DNA of 64,000 nucleotides from Bernardetia sp. (GTDB lineage Bacteria > Bacteroidota > Bacteroidia > Cytophagales > Bernardetiaceae), in assembly GCF_020630935.1 (NCBI RefSeq), contig NZ_JAHDIG010000018.1, positions 1-64,000 on the forward strand, given 5' to 3'. Position numbers and translations under genes: made by a program. Below, piece by piece: positions 1,370 to 7,473 of this stretch. The notes below the pieces were generated by a model. It made no database searches, had not been told where the DNA came from, and was given only the letters and a program-made list of their open reading frames with translations. Within the stretch, counting starts at the first letter, position 1. Every line of letters starts with the position of its first letter.

Positions 1370-3586
1370 CTACCCCCTCCTAAACCTCTTCTCATACGTT
1401 TCAATAACTTTCCAATAGACGACAGGAATTTCTTGTATCAAATCGGCTGCTATGGCGAAAAGAGAAGTATCTTTTGAGATAGAAATGCTGTATTTTTCGG
1501 TGTTTTCTTCCCAGTTTTCAGCATTCAAGATGTCGTTTGCTCCGAAGAAATCGCCTTTTTGTAGCGTTTCTACTTTTTTACCATTCCGTTTGAGAGTTAC
1601 GCTGCCTTCTGCTATCAGATAGAGAATGTATTTTTGAGAGAAATCTTGTCCTTCAGTTTGGGTCATTGCTTTGGCAATGCGTGTTAGAATAGGAAAAGAA
1701 ACCACCTCGCCAAAGAGCCATGTATTTTCTAAAAACAAAATATTTTTCTCTACTCGTTTGAGTTCGCTATACAAATCATTTCTATCCACAAAATCGTGAT
1801 ACGATTGTAGAGGAATCTGAATAACAGTAATATTACTGGCTGCTCGGTAGGTTTCAAGAGCTTTTCCACCCAAATACCCCGAATAAAAACCAATGAGAGA
1901 ACCTGCTGGCAAAACGTGTTGGTTGCCTCGTTTGGAATCTATAAATTCCACCGAACCTGTGAGAAGCAAATACACATATTCGCTATTGTGTCCTTTTTTG
2001 AAAAGAATTGTTCCTGCGTTGAAGTGCCTTACCGAATGGTTGAGCAAATAATTGACTTCGTGCTGTGGAGCGCTAGGAAAATAAAATTGAATGTATTTGC
2101 TCGCAAAATCAAAGAGATAATCATGACTAGCAGGAATAAGTTTATCAATCATTCCGAAGGCTGCCGATGAACCAATTTCTCGTTCTTTGAAAGTGAGTGG
2201 TTTGTGCGTGTGTGCCAAAACTATTTTTTTAGATTCATCTTTTCGATAATCTTCGGCTTGTCCGTGAATCATTCCTCCACCAATATCAATTTTTTTGAGG
2301 TCGGTAGGAATAAGGTAGTTTTGCGTGATTTTGTCGTACCACTCATTAGAAACTTGCAAATTGTCGTCTCGTTCCGTCATTTTTTTGAAAACATCAAACG
2401 AAACTACATCAGCTAAATGTCCATAAACTTTGTAGGCATCTTTCCATTTGGCTCTAAAATAAAATAAATTCGTTTCGACAGGGTGAGGCGAATACAATGG
2501 CATTACCTCCAAGCCATCTACATCGTTCCATGTGTCAAATTCCAAATCACAGACATCAAAAAAGTTTTTAAAATTGCTTTCCTCAATAGACATCAAGGCA
2601 GCCAATTTTTTGGTAACGGCAGCACGAACAAGTGGTGTGGCGTAATATTTAAAACGTCTGTCGGTTCGGATGAGTGTAGTAAGCCCTGCAAAATGGTCGT
2701 CGTGAGCGTGGGTATGGAAAATTCCCTCAATCTCATTGACGCTAATTCCTAAATAATTCAGACTTGTCAGAATATTGGGACCTGCATCTACTAAAAATAT
2801 CTTTCCTTGAAAAATAACAATGCTCGCCATACAAGGACGATTAATATCCCAGCCATCACCTTCTCCAGAATGTACCACAGCAAAATATTCTCTATTCAGA
2901 TAGTGATACCCCAACTGATAAGGAGCTTCATAACGGTCTTCTGCTCCCAAATTTAGATTTACTTCTACGCTTTCCTCTTTATAACTAATCTCATAAATAT
3001 TAAATCCTTTTCTTTCTATAAAAACTCCGTTTCGAATTTCTGTTTTTGTGTTTTCTTGTTCTGAATTTTCATTTTCTTCGATAATTCGCTTGTCTAAAAG
3101 AGCATCAGATGGGTTTATTTTTCCAAAGGCAAAATTGAGTTTTATTCGCATCATTTGCTCAAAATCTTCTCCTCTTACTCCTGCTGCTTCATATTCTTCT
3201 TTATTAATTAAGCCATAATTTCCACGATAAAAATATTTCATTTGTGCTTCTATCTGCTCTTCTGTTCCGATAATCATGGGACGGATGCCTGTATTATTCG
3301 GATGATTCGGAATGACCATTCCTTGCAAATAGAGCATCTGCATAGCAGGAAATTCTATCAAATTCGAAAAGCTACCGTTCTGCATCAAGACTTCTGAAAG
3401 CAAAATACAGTTGGGTCCTGATTCATAAGAAACAATATTTTTTCCTATCTTTTTATCAATCGTTTCGATAAGCCCACGTTTTTTCAAATGTTTGACAGCA
3501 TCAGCAGGACAACCACAAAGCATAAAAACATTTGCTTCTGGCACTTCTACCCAAAAAATTCCTGTACTTACTTTCAGCTTCTTCAT
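1370..3586 (-). CDS. Metallo-beta-lactamase-fold hydrolase with two cyclic-nucleotide-binding domains
   Basis: A 738-residue protein with no signal peptide. An N-terminal region of about 200 residues is not recognised. The central metallo-beta-lactamase domain starts near residue 255 (KIFLVDAGPN) and has the metal motif H-x-H-x-D-H at residues 293-298, with further candidate ligands in SPHPVE, GHLAD and LAHTHKP. Two cNMP-binding beta-rolls follow, at about 510-620 (AGTILFKKGHNSEYVYLLLTGSVEF) and 620-735 (ILYLIAEGSVTLKRNG). It is the last gene of a minus-strand cluster that begins with two adenylate cyclases, so a hydrolase controlled by cyclic nucleotide, possibly a phosphodiesterase, is a reasonable inference; the substrate is not proven. 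A five-unit heptamer array ends about 4 bases before its ATG, where a ribosome-binding site would be expected. Confidence 0.8.
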   Translation of the reverse strand: MKKLKVSTGIFWVEVPEANVFMLCGCPADAVKHLKKRGLIETIDKKIGKNIVSYESGPNCILLSEVLMQNGSFSNLIEFPAMQMLYLQGMVIPNHPNNTGIRPMIIGTEEQIEAQMKYFYRGNYGLINKEEYEAAGVRGEDFEQMMRIKLNFAFGKINPSDALLDKRIIEENENSEQENTKTEIRNGVFIERKGFNIYEISYKEESVEVNLNLGAEDRYEAPYQLGYHYLNREYFAVVHSGEGDGWDINRPCMASIVIFQGKIFLVDAGPNILTSLNYLGISVNEIEGIFHTHAHDDHFAGLTTLIRTDRRFKYYATPLVRAAVTKKLAALMSIEESNFKNFFDVCDLEFDTWNDVDGLEVMPLYSPHPVETNLFYFRAKWKDAYKVYGHLADVVSFDVFKKMTERDDNLQVSNEWYDKITQNYLIPTDLKKIDIGGGMIHGQAEDYRKDESKKIVLAHTHKPLTFKEREIGSSAAFGMIDKLIPASHDYLFDFASKYIQFYFPSAPQHEVNYLLNHSVRHFNAGTILFKKGHNSEYVYLLLTGSVEFIDSKRGNQHVLPAGSLIGFYSGYLGGKALETYRAASNITVIQIPLQSYHDFVDRNDLYSELKRVEKNILFLENTWLFGEVVSFPILTRIAKAMTQTEGQDFSQKYILYLIAEGSVTLKRNGKKVETLQKGDFFGANDILNAENWEENTEKYSISISKDTSLFAIAADLIQEIPVVYWKVIETYEKRFRRG

Positions 3587-3590
3587 AATA

Positions 3591-3625
3591 TCAGTAATCA
3601 GTAATCAGTAATCAGTAATCAGTAA
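3591..3625. repeat. TCAGTAA tandem array, five units (left arm)
   Basis: Five exact copies of the heptamer TCAGTAA run without spacers from 3591 to 3625. They are followed at 3621-3647 by a hairpin, AGTAAATAC / GTATTTACT with a 9-base loop. On the transcribed minus strand the array reads (TTACTGA)5 and lies directly before the start codon of the MBL-cNMP protein and after the four-helix-bundle gene. Its inverted partner is at 4055-4087. Confidence 0.95.
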
Positions 3626-3657
3626 ATACGATTTTGTAGTATTTACTTTATATACTA

Positions 3658-4038
3658 CTACTTTTTCTGACTTATTTTACGTTTGTTTATTCTCGTTTTT
3701 CTTAAAATTGCGAAAAGCATTTTGCCGATTTCATCGGCTTGTTTGTACATACTCTCGTATGTATTTTCGTCTATATAACCTGTATCTTTTAGTAAACTCA
3801 GCCAGTATTTAGTTTCTAAACATTCTTTATAAGCAATGCTCATTTTGGCAGAAAAATCATCATCAGAAATTGCTCCATTAGCTTCTATAATATTTGCTCC
3901 AATAGAAGTTCCAGAGCGTAATAATTGCTTTGAAAGTACATACTCTTTTTTCTGCTCTTTCAAAAACTCAAAAGCCTTTACTATTCTGATAGCAAAAGGA
4001 TAGGCTTTATCATACACTAGGCTTCTATTCTCTATCAT
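3658..4038 (-). CDS. Four-helix bundle protein (S23 / 23S rRNA intervening-sequence type)
   Basis: A 126-residue basic helical protein. The pattern VYDKAYPFAIRIVKA, then LSKQLLRSGTSIGANIIEANGA, then AYKECLETKYWLSLLKDTGYI is the hallmark of the four-helix-bundle family named for proteins encoded in 23S rRNA intervening sequences; the Avd accessory protein of diversity-generating retroelements shares the fold. The C-terminus is strongly basic (RKTRINKRKISQKK), consistent with nucleic-acid binding. No reverse transcriptase or rRNA is nearby. The gene sits between the second adenylate cyclase and the MBL-cNMP gene, and inverted TCAGTAA/TTACTGA arrays bracket it, so in the transcript it would lie in the loop of a potential stem. 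Biochemical function is unknown. Confidence 0.88.
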   Translation of the reverse strand: MIENRSLVYDKAYPFAIRIVKAFEFLKEQKKEYVLSKQLLRSGTSIGANIIEANGAISDDDFSAKMSIAYKECLETKYWLSLLKDTGYIDENTYESMYKQADEIGKMLFAILRKTRINKRKISQKK

Positions 4039-4054
4039 AACTAAAGCATCAAAA

Positions 4055-4087
4055 TACTGATTACTGATTACTGGTTACTGACGACTG
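4055..4087. repeat. TTACTGA array, inverted partner (right arm), overlapping a gene end
   Basis: TACTGA-TTACTGA-TTACTGG-TTACTGA-CGACTGA: the heptamer of 3591-3625 in the opposite orientation, with decay at the outer edge. It runs into the 3' end of the adenylate cyclase gene and supplies its last codons (VTSNQ and the TAA stop). A 25-base copy differing by one base (one C/T) is at 19506-19530. Confidence 0.9.
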
Positions 4088-5758
4088 AACGAAATACATA
4101 TCAATTTCCCCTTTATTCTTTGCTGTAATTTTCCCTCTGTATTCACACTCAAAATCATTTTTTACATGATGGTATGTGGTTTCAGAGATATTTACCTTTC
4201 CAACTTCTCCACTAGACTCCATTCTTGCTGCAAGGTTTACGGCATCGCCCCAAATGTCGTAGGCAAATTTATTTTTACCAATCACACCAGCCACTACCGA
4301 ACCTGTATGAATTCCCAAACGAAGTTCAAAAGTTGGTTCACCTATTTTTTCTTGGTAAGATTTCCAATCTTTCATAAACTGTTGCATCTCTAAACCTGCT
4401 CTTACAGCATCTTTTGGATTGGAACTGTTAGCCACTGGAATCCCTCCTGCACACATATAGGCATCACCTATAGTTTTGATTTTTTCAAGATCGTATTTAT
4501 CACAAATTTTATCAAACTCTGTAAAACAGTACTCTAATTTTTTGACGAGATCTTCTGGTGATAATTTTTCAGAAATCTGCGTAAAACCTTTGAAATCAGT
4601 AAACATAACCGTTACTAGGTCGTAAGATTGTGGTTGAGCATGTCCTGTTTCTTTGAGTTCTTGTGCTGTTTCTTCTGGCAAAATATTGAGTAAAAGCGTA
4701 TCTGATTTTTGGCGCTCTAGTTCTATTTCCTTGTTTTTCGAACTAAGTTTTCTATTACTATTAAATTTTTGAATAAAGGCTACTACAGAAATAAGAAGAA
4801 CGATTCCACCACCAATAAGTCCGATGAGAAACTGATTGTTTCGTGCTTTTTGTGCTTGTGCTTCAGCTTTTTGCGCTTGCGCTTCGGCTTGTTGCTCTTT
4901 AGCAATGGCTTCTTGTTTCTGACGCTCAGATTCTTTCATTTTCAAATCAAGATTTTTGAGTTGAAGTTCTAGTCCTTGCCTTTCAATAACATATTTTTGA
5001 GAGTCAATATCCAAGGTCAGTTCTTTTTTTTGAGTTCTTAAAAACTCTAATTCTCTTTGCGATAAAAGCATAGGGTCTATTTTCATTGCTTCTTCTAGCT
5101 CTCTTTTTTTGTCTCGTGGGTCTGGCTTTTCGCTTTGAGCTTTATCCCACATGAGTTCAAAGAGTTTTACTTTTTCTTCGCTCCCTTGTTTTGTGTGTGC
5201 CTCTATCAGTACAGTAGAAAGATTTATTCTATCTTGGCGAGTAATTTCGAAAACATCTGGTTTTGAAAGTAGCGTTTCGGCAGTCGGAATGAGGTTTTCA
5301 TAATCTCTTTCCTTGTGCGTAATTTTGACAATTTTACGCAAAACTTCTCCTTCTTTTTTGGATTCATTTAGTTCATTGTAGAGTTCGGCTGCTTCTCTAT
5401 ATTGATTATTTTTTTTGGTAAAATAATCTGGCATTTTATATTTGTCGCCTAATCGTTCGTGGCTTTTGGCTTTTAAAAGTTTATCATTATTTTTTTCAGC
5501 AGTATAGATAGCTCTTTCATAATAACGTGTCATCAAACCATCTTGCTTGATAAGATGATAACTATCTGCAATTTGCCAGCTTAGACTAATGACTGTTTTG
5601 TAGTCTCCATTTTTTAAGGCACGTTTTCGCTTGGCATCATAGTTCCTAATCTTTGAAATTACTTGACGACGGTTATAGTTTTGTGCTTTCCCCCAATCAT
5701 AAGGCACAAAAAGCAACACAATCAGTGAAGCAATGAGAACAAGATATCTTTTTTTCAT
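4061..5758 (-). CDS. Membrane-anchored class III adenylate cyclase with TPR-like sensor region
   Basis: A 565-residue protein: signal peptide (about 1-25), a helical TPR-like region (about 35-215), a charged coiled coil with Q/A/E repeats (about 235-305), one membrane helix (about 310-330), a linker coil, and a C-terminal class III cyclase domain (about 385-560). Both metal-binding aspartates are visible (FTDFKGFT and KTIGDAY). The base-selecting positions are Lys in IKTIGD and Asp in YDIWGDAVN, the adenylate rather than guanylate pattern, and the transition-state Asn and Arg (VNLAARMES) are present. The layout puts the TPR part in the periplasm and the catalytic part in the cytoplasm. It is about 43% helical linker and shares architecture with the preceding cyclase, 50 bases upstream. 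The last residues come from the dispersed TTACTGA repeat. Confidence 0.92.
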   Translation of the reverse strand: MKKRYLVLIASLIVLLFVPYDWGKAQNYNRRQVISKIRNYDAKRKRALKNGDYKTVISLSWQIADSYHLIKQDGLMTRYYERAIYTAEKNNDKLLKAKSHERLGDKYKMPDYFTKKNNQYREAAELYNELNESKKEGEVLRKIVKITHKERDYENLIPTAETLLSKPDVFEITRQDRINLSTVLIEAHTKQGSEEKVKLFELMWDKAQSEKPDPRDKKRELEEAMKIDPMLLSQRELEFLRTQKKELTLDIDSQKYVIERQGLELQLKNLDLKMKESERQKQEAIAKEQQAEAQAQKAEAQAQKARNNQFLIGLIGGGIVLLISVVAFIQKFNSNRKLSSKNKEIELERQKSDTLLLNILPEETAQELKETGHAQPQSYDLVTVMFTDFKGFTQISEKLSPEDLVKKLEYCFTEFDKICDKYDLEKIKTIGDAYMCAGGIPVANSSNPKDAVRAGLEMQQFMKDWKSYQEKIGEPTFELRLGIHTGSVVAGVIGKNKFAYDIWGDAVNLAARMESSGEVGKVNISETTYHHVKNDFECEYRGKITAKNKGEIDMYFVQSSVTSNQ

Positions 5759-5808: not shown

Positions 5809-7473
5809 TTAAAACTTAGAAACAACAAAGTACATATCTACTTCGCCTTTATTTTTGGCTTCTATTTTTCCACGATACGAACAGAAAAAATAATCCCTAA
5901 CAAGTGAATATGTGTATTCAGAAATATTTACTCTTCCAACCTCCCCACTAGATTCCATTCGGGCTGCCAAATTTACAGTATCGCCCCAAATGTCATAAGC
6001 AAAGCGTTTTTTCCCAACTACACCAGCTACAACAGGTCCTGTATGGATTCCTAAACGCATTTCGAAATACGGCTTTCCTTGTAGCATTTTCTTTTGTTTG
6101 AGTTGCTCAATGACTTCTTGCATTTCCATAGCTGCGCTCACAGCATCGACAGGATTCGTATAATTTGTAGTTGGAATACCTCCAGCACACATATAAGCAT
6201 CTCCCATCGTTTTGATACGCTCCAAATTCCATTTTTCACAAATAGAATCAAATTCTGAAAAACACTCAGCAAGCTCGTCGATGAGTTCCTCAGGAGTTAG
6301 TTCTTCAGCAACTTGTGTAAAGCCTTTAAAGTCTGTAAAAATAACACTCACTTGGTCGTAAGAACGTGGAGGCAAGTTCGGATTACGTTTGAGTTCTTCA
6401 GCTATTTCTTTTGGTAAAATATTAAGTAATAGAGCTTCCGAACGCTCTTTTTCTTGTTCTATAATTTCCTTTTGACTTTCAATTTCTTCATTTTTGGACG
6501 CTAGTTCTTGGTTGGCAGAAGCAAGTTCTCGGTTGGCTTTTTTCTTAGCCCTCACTGTATTACTCTGAATAATAATAAAAATTATGAGAATTACAGCAAA
6601 AAAGGCTACTCCTCCAACAACATACATAAAGAGCTTTTTATCTGCTTCCCTTGCTGCCAAAGATTCTGTATGCAAACGTTCCAAACTATCTGACTCAAAT
6701 GTACTTCGCTCTAAAAGTTCTTCTATACTAAGTGTTTTTACTTTCTGCTCTTGTGCTATTTTTTCAGCTTCTTTTTTCTTCTCCTCTTTTTCTGTTTTTG
6801 AGACAGATAAGGTATCTATCAATACTTCATCTTTTCTTTCTTCTAGTGCTATTACATCTTGCGCCTCGTCTTTTATTTCTTCTTTGATGTTAGCATACAA
6901 ATTGGCATTTTTAGTATCTCCTTTTATTCTATAGATTTTTGCTAAATCTTCTGTAATTTGTAAAACAAGTTGCGTGGCATTGGCATTGTTGGCAGAACGA
7001 ATTGTCGTTTTATACACTTCAATAGCTGCATCATATCTCTTCATTTGAGCATAAACATTGCCCTCCAAATAATGATAAAGAGCAGCCTTTTTTCTATCTC
7101 CTAATAGTTCATAAGATTTTGAAGCCTTTTTATAATTAAAAACGGCTTGCTCATAATTCTTCTGATTTTTATAAATTTCAGCCAAAGAGGCATAGGTTTT
7201 TCCTAAGTTTTCATAATCTTTGACAGTAGCTGAATGCTTAACAGCTTGATTAAGATAGCTGATGGCTTCATCTGTATTTCCTTGCCTGTATTTTCCTTTG
7301 CCAATCTCAAAAGCCAATCTTCCTGCTTTATCAGGACGATATTTGTTTACAGCTGCTTTATATTGAGTTTCTAGGTTTTGAGCTACCGTTTGATAGAGAG
7401 GAAAAAAATACAACGTAAAAATAAATACACTAAAAATAGAAGCAAGCAGAAAAGATTTTTTTTGGAGTAGCAT
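5809..7473 (-). CDS. Membrane-anchored class III adenylate cyclase with TPR domain
   Basis: A 554-residue paralogue of the next gene downstream. It has an N-terminal signal/anchor (about 8-28), clear TPR units (about 35-200, for example NTDEAISYLNQAVKHSATVKDY and YEQAVFNYKKASKSYELLGD), a membrane helix (about 272-295), a coiled coil that leads into the cyclase, and a cyclase domain (about 365-550). The metal aspartates (FTDFKGFT, KTMGDAY) and the adenine-type Lys/Asp pair (IKTMGD, YDIWGDTVN) are intact, so it should make cAMP from ATP. As the first gene of the minus-strand cluster it probably senses a cell-envelope condition through its TPR region and feeds the cNMP-binding protein encoded at the other end of the cluster. 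Confidence 0.92.
   Translation of the reverse strand: MLLQKKSFLLASIFSVFIFTLYFFPLYQTVAQNLETQYKAAVNKYRPDKAGRLAFEIGKGKYRQGNTDEAISYLNQAVKHSATVKDYENLGKTYASLAEIYKNQKNYEQAVFNYKKASKSYELLGDRKKAALYHYLEGNVYAQMKRYDAAIEVYKTTIRSANNANATQLVLQITEDLAKIYRIKGDTKNANLYANIKEEIKDEAQDVIALEERKDEVLIDTLSVSKTEKEEKKKEAEKIAQEQKVKTLSIEELLERSTFESDSLERLHTESLAAREADKKLFMYVVGGVAFFAVILIIFIIIQSNTVRAKKKANRELASANQELASKNEEIESQKEIIEQEKERSEALLLNILPKEIAEELKRNPNLPPRSYDQVSVIFTDFKGFTQVAEELTPEELIDELAECFSEFDSICEKWNLERIKTMGDAYMCAGGIPTTNYTNPVDAVSAAMEMQEVIEQLKQKKMLQGKPYFEMRLGIHTGPVVAGVVGKKRFAYDIWGDTVNLAARMESSGEVGRVNISEYTYSLVRDYFFCSYRGKIEAKNKGEVDMYFVVSKF

Follow-up and report, generated by a model that had tools for sequence, protein, structure and literature searches.

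The locus analyzed here lies in a window of 64,000 nucleotides of Bernardetia sp. (NZ_JAHDIG010000018.1), where a small gene of the S23 type, enclosed by two heptamer arrays (hereafter, arms), sits within an operon read entirely from the minus strand in the order cyclase, cyclase, arm, S23, arm and MBL/cNMP-binding protein (Table 1).

Table 1. Features of the insert and its host operon, with positions in the window.
Feature	Positions	Strand	Remarks
Downstream host gene	1370..3586	-	MBL-fold + cyclic-nucleotide-binding protein, 738 aa
Downstream (3') arm	3591..3625		five exact TCAGTAA units (coding strand TTACTGA)
S23-type four-helix-bundle gene	3658..4038	-	126 aa, PF05635 / TIGR02436; in sense with the operon
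Upstream (5') arm	4055..4088		inverted, partly degenerate array; coding strand TCAGTCGTCAGTAACCAGTAATCAGTAATCAGTA
Upstream host gene	4061..5758	-	adenylate/guanylate cyclase, 565 aa; last codons inside the 5' arm
Second cyclase, with TPR repeats	5809..7473	-	next upstream in the cluster (context)

The five exact TCAGTAA units at 3591-3625 were found precisely as the original prediction had described them, and the end of this array is separated by 4 bases from the ATG of the MBL-cNMP gene, whose ribosome-binding region it had been said to occupy, with possible control of that gene. The array on the other side, described there as a matching inverted one at 4055-4087, is indeed present at 4055-4088 (TACTGATTACTGATTACTGGTTACTGACGACTGA), but it is more degenerate than "matching" suggests, as two exact heptamers are followed by degenerate units, and it extends into the final codons of the cyclase gene. 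Complementarity between the arms is 96% for 3591-3617 against 4055-4081 and 91% for 3591-3624 against 4055-4088, and a two-unit pattern with up to 2 mismatches matched 14 times in the window, whereas 100 shuffles gave 1.0 matches on average and never more than 4. In the predicted fold of the minus-strand transcript (-137.2 kcal/mol, z -6.2) the arms pair into a stem that encloses the S23 ORF, as had been anticipated for the transcribed strand. A search of positions 3000-4600 against Rfam yielded no credible RNA family.

The product of the 126-aa ORF belongs to the predicted family, with scores of 109 bits against PF05635 (cut-off 33.8; 1.8e-31) and 116.2 bits against TIGR02436 (cut-off 24; 7.5e-34). 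Its solved relatives, 2RLD and 2GSC, have five chains each, and PF05635 is akin to Avd, the related four-helix-bundle family of diversity-generating retroelements (PMC10053308); the S23 protein is likely a pentamer related to Avd. It does not make the insert a diversity-generating retroelement, given that the match to the Avd profile NF033474 is weak (25.2 bits, cut-off 80) and that no reverse transcriptase was found among the genes neighboring the insert. In a sample of six genomes, too small to judge whether a reverse transcriptase is a partner of S23, such genes were present in the same genome and in four of five congeners, and absent from the congener G005. Among close S23 relatives, dN/dS values of ~0.07-0.22 (pairs with dS measurable and not near zero) indicate that the protein is under purifying selection.

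Comparison with related genomes provided the empty sites that the original prediction had asked for. The cyclase and MBL genes lie 82-136 bp apart in six of six congeners, with neither the S23 gene nor the TCAGTAA array between them and with an MBL-cNMP protein 90-93% identical to that of the window, and the same two genes abut, likewise without the insert, in a genome of another family (G012). Because the six congeners and G012 lack it, the insert is most simply regarded as derived at its present site. Conserved synteny of S23 with the cyclases in array-less relatives, named beforehand as evidence against the prediction, was not found. The possibility that S23 is a functional part of the cyclase cluster was rejected, as the congeners keep the operon without it. 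In three of them (L084, L085, L086) a different inverted repeat, AACCGTCGTTGAGGCTTTGCCGTCAACGAGG, occupies the cyclase-MBL spacer, with other hairpins in the remaining ones; small repeats of several kinds seem able to settle in this spacer.

The nearest homologues of the S23 protein (73-76% identical) are encoded in five congeners at a site with a BamA-like gene on one side and a Skp-like gene on the other, and are flanked there by arms of the same type as those of the insert, mostly degenerate. At the same BamA-Skp site, the genome under study and G005 have arms without S23, those of the former being degenerate. Two other S23 genes of this genome (L003 and L004, before recF-like and tgt-like genes, respectively) share homology across the whole unit, both arms included, and none beyond it; the homology between two Microcystis S23 copies has the same limits. 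A clean empty site in Microcystis was considered and rejected, since rearrangement has altered the corresponding position in the other genome; this comparison serves to fix the edges of the element only. Of the two fates proposed for the insert, a mobile or an RNA-processed element, mobility is borne out by the empty sites of the congeners, the relocated homologues and the arm-to-arm homology, which make it very probable that the S23 gene and its arms are a single mobile unit; RNA processing drew no RNA-specific signal from a comparison of mismatches. In that comparison, G-U pairs between arms were not in excess over A-C mismatches (88:91 and 31:40 in strict alignments), so RNA pairing is not supported as the force keeping the arms alike, and they may be renewed at the DNA level. 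Processing of the RNA at the arms is plausible but unproven.

S23 is the sole gene encoded within the unit, and neither a transposase nor any other mobility enzyme was found inside it. No target-site duplication was detected against the empty sites of the congeners. At the present site of the insert the former intergenic sequence has been replaced instead of being cleanly interrupted, and the cyclase genes of relatives already terminate in heptamer-like units, one or two of them, at the point where the insert starts. Movement is not frequent everywhere, because some S23 loci are stable across genera: units occupy a shared position between radC and argS (L143, L151, L152, L154, L159, L161, L165), before recN (L166, L167, L170, L175) and before hypC (L163, L174), with arms that change in sequence and remain paired. 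At the radC-argS site the arm sequences differ by genus and are nearly perfect partners inside each genome, from which it follows that both arms turn over together.

The genome contains four S23 genes, and the arrays around L003 and L004 are built from a different heptamer, AGTGATT. Sites with arrays of the TCAGTAA/TTACTGA type number ~20, one of them with S23, so dispersed arrays without S23 also occur; the reversed control pattern had no match in the genome. When both neighbors were known, the S23-less arrays were always located between co-directional genes (14/14): arrays of one orientation adjoined a start codon, those of the opposite orientation a stop codon. Mixed TAACTG/TTACTG units were present in arrays of this genome. 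Six contigs of the assembly (C10, C32, C35, C39, C71 and C77 of G000) end in TCAGTAA/TTACTGA arrays of at least 7 units, which implies that longer arrays have broken the assembly and that the real number of sites is higher. The genome has two more heptamer families, AATTACG and (T)AGTGAT(T) (L053 1-55; L041 and L049 near 1346-1500); the former flanks an S23 gene in another genome (L082 in G026), and AGTGATT is the heptamer of L003 and L004.

The survey of S23 loci was extended to ~150 from Bacteroidota, Cyanobacteria, Firmicutes and Proteobacteria, including a first set of 40 S23-centered regions of up to 20 kb each from the phylum Bacteroidota and a second set of 80 more loci from many phyla. 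In the first set, 38 period-7 arrays were located within 200 bp of S23 (~16 kb over the 40 loci), in 27 of these loci, compared to 21 in the remaining ~740 kb, and the only arrays of another period near S23 were of period 8 (four arrays, from two loci). Over both sets, the flanks scored at least 14 for inverted similarity in 96 of 119 loci; among 881 control windows, equal in geometry and shifted along these loci, 3 did so. Outside Bacteroidota this level was attained in 24 of 29 loci. The array search proposed at the outset thus revealed inverted period-7 arms as a general feature of S23 genes. Where ORFs allowed both neighbors to be called, S23 was in sense between co-directional genes in 81 cases and antisense to both in 7 (p ~4e-17), and none of 120 surveyed loci carried any of three conserved 23S rRNA motifs. 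S23 genes seldom occur without arms, whereas arrays often occur without S23; the absence of a link between arrays and S23 genes, which had been put forward as an argument against the unit, was therefore encountered in one direction only. Judging from these sequences, the S23 gene with its arms constitutes a widespread unit, and the locus in the window, far from being a rarity, belongs to a very large family. Some close relatives of the heptamer elements depart from the usual length, as L140 and L142 (genus g72) have an 8-base arm unit, TCAGTATG; a 9-base arm unit was found in L075.

The heptamers themselves vary strongly among loci (GAGTGGA, TGCAAAA, GAACTCG, AGTTAGG, AATTACG and CAATGAA, for example), and within a locus the upstream heptamer is the reverse complement of the downstream one (z 14-24 compared to re-paired arms). 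Pairwise identity of the S23 proteins correlates with the similarity of their heptamers (rho 0.25; 0/1000 permutations), also when pairs sharing homologous flanking genes are excluded (rho 0.24; 0/1000 permutations); the 78 elements in this comparison fall into 55 site clusters. The closest relatives of the S23 of the insert, cyanobacterial ones included, have mostly CAGT-type arms. The correlation implies that the arms travel together with the gene, and it is compatible with a protein that recognizes the heptamer, without proving it. To our knowledge, no experiment has shown an S23 protein of this kind binding its repeats.

S23 proteins were first found encoded in stem-loop intervening sequences of 23S rRNA genes. 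The one inserted in the 23S rRNA of Coxiella burnetii has tandem GACAGAT heptamers just before the ATG of S23p and a 28-bp terminal stem, with RNase III cutting at the first heptamer, and a function and an origin for S23 proteins and rRNA intervening sequences have been lacking for more than 25 years (PMC4990558). The insert in the window shares with it the S23-family ORF in sense, the stem-forming complementary ends, the sporadic distribution and, immediately ahead of the S23 start codon, a 5' arm with tandem heptamers (PMC4990558), although it lies between cyclase and MBL-cNMP genes rather than in rRNA and uses another heptamer. This is the free-standing unit with rRNA intervening-sequence anatomy that had been foreseen between mRNA-coding genes; the stem around a sense ORF that characterizes such sequences is present, and the modeled fold is compatible with excision by RNase III without ligation.

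A second thread leads to the TAACTGA direct repeats reported by MacGregor in 2015 in Beggiatoaceae, Cyanobacteria and five Bacteroidetes, Flexibacter litoralis being among the listed carriers (PMC4679880). In Beggiatoaceae these lie mostly just before start codons, the reversed ones after the stop codon; S1, Csp or CsrA proteins were proposed as their binders, and no transfer mechanism was found (PMC4679880). The TTACTGA x5 of the insert, one base different and also before a start codon, belongs with this repeat family, but that paper treats the arrays alone, with neither an S23 gene nor an inverted partner arm, and the words S23, 23S, intervening and four helix are absent from its text (PMC4679880). 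In Geobacter metallireducens, tandem heptamer and octamer families, some in inverted pairs, have been described as putative regulator sites (PMC2700814). The insert also resembles MITEs, REP/BIME and insertion sequences, which are short, have inverted ends and leave dispersed gene-less copies; it differs from them in that its ends consist of tandem heptamers whose sequence can change and the enclosed gene is no transposase, and it shows neither the transposase nor the target-site duplication of an insertion sequence or DNA transposon. Our literature search, in which subscription journals were thinly covered, found no paper in which S23 genes are linked with heptamer arms within mRNA operons. 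The heptamer-S23 insert of Coxiella and the TAACTGA repeats, published as separate threads, come together in this locus, and no paper relating one to the other was found.

The gene and its two arms thus form one unit, which is found at different sites in related genomes, has concerted arms and carries a heptamer that goes with the S23 lineage. The insert is probably a widespread small mobile cassette, made of an S23 gene and lineage-specific inverted heptamer arms and placed in sense between the cistrons of operons. This cassette would correspond, in mRNA, to the intervening sequences of 23S rRNA genes that bear S23, which look like a special case of it. Such a cassette would be transcribed by read-through from the host operon, and its arms would pair in the transcript, probably becoming a substrate of RNase III as in rRNA; S23 would recognize the heptamer of its own unit, in RNA or in single-stranded DNA, and this recognition might result in protection, regulation or spread of the unit, with the dispersed S23-less arrays as its remnants or targets. 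We see an even chance that S23 acts on its own heptamers, and regard processing of the unit by RNase III in mRNA as possible, if somewhat doubtful.

The strongest rival is array-to-array recombination, according to which the dispersed arrays are primary and work as patches for homologous recombination, and S23 is a passenger without activity of its own, moved between array-bearing intergenic sites. The ~20 array sites in the genome for one S23 gene of that heptamer type speak for it, as do the array matches, 35-209 per genome, in six congeners (one of which, G005, lacks an S23 of the lineage of the insert), the heptamer-like units already present in the cyclase genes of relatives and the rearrangement near the arms at the Microcystis site. 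We nevertheless consider it unlikely, because it gives a poor account of the inverted, matched arms around S23, of a heptamer that tracks the S23 lineage between unrelated sites and of the purifying selection on S23. This selection would be expected if S23 and its arms were a resident regulatory module of the operon, in which the protein binds the mRNA repeats and sets downstream expression, changes of site being rare accidents; an arm abuts the downstream start codon at the insert and at many other loci, the Beggiatoaceae repeats are similarly placed (PMC4679880), and some sites are stable across genera. On the other hand, the host genes are mostly unrelated, with 55 site clusters for 78 elements, the congeners run the same operon without the insert, and the arms have no G-U bias, so that such a module appears quite improbable.

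Chance was weighed as well, that is, arrays produced as simple-sequence repeats by replication slippage in non-coding DNA and lying beside S23 by accident. Some bacteria are rich in tandem heptamers, and arrays without S23 exist, but the decay with distance from S23, the restriction to period 7, the inverted matching within loci and the lack of any match for the reversed pattern leave this explanation a negligible probability, and these four controls refute chance or simple slippage as the whole explanation.

Returning to the mobile cassette, a bolder version of it can be offered tentatively, and we hold it to be rather doubtful: S23 proteins would be sequence-specific pentamers that read the tandem heptamers of their own lineage and spread and renew their own arms, making up a transposase-free class of mobile elements located between operon genes in many phyla; the rRNA intervening sequences would then be a few members that landed in rRNA, and the footprints of the class would include the TAACTGA repeats. 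Linking S23 and these repeats to one cassette turns the matter into a direct question, whether S23 binds the heptamer flanking its own gene, for which nature supplies the specificity controls, since each S23 comes with its own heptamer. The cassette would also explain many "four helix bundle protein" annotations in unrelated operons.

Elsewhere in the window, an overlapping pair of minus-strand genes (82-774 and 764-1330), read from their translations only, comprises one with a HEIGH metallopeptidase-like motif and one whose product resembles a restriction-endonuclease-like domain.
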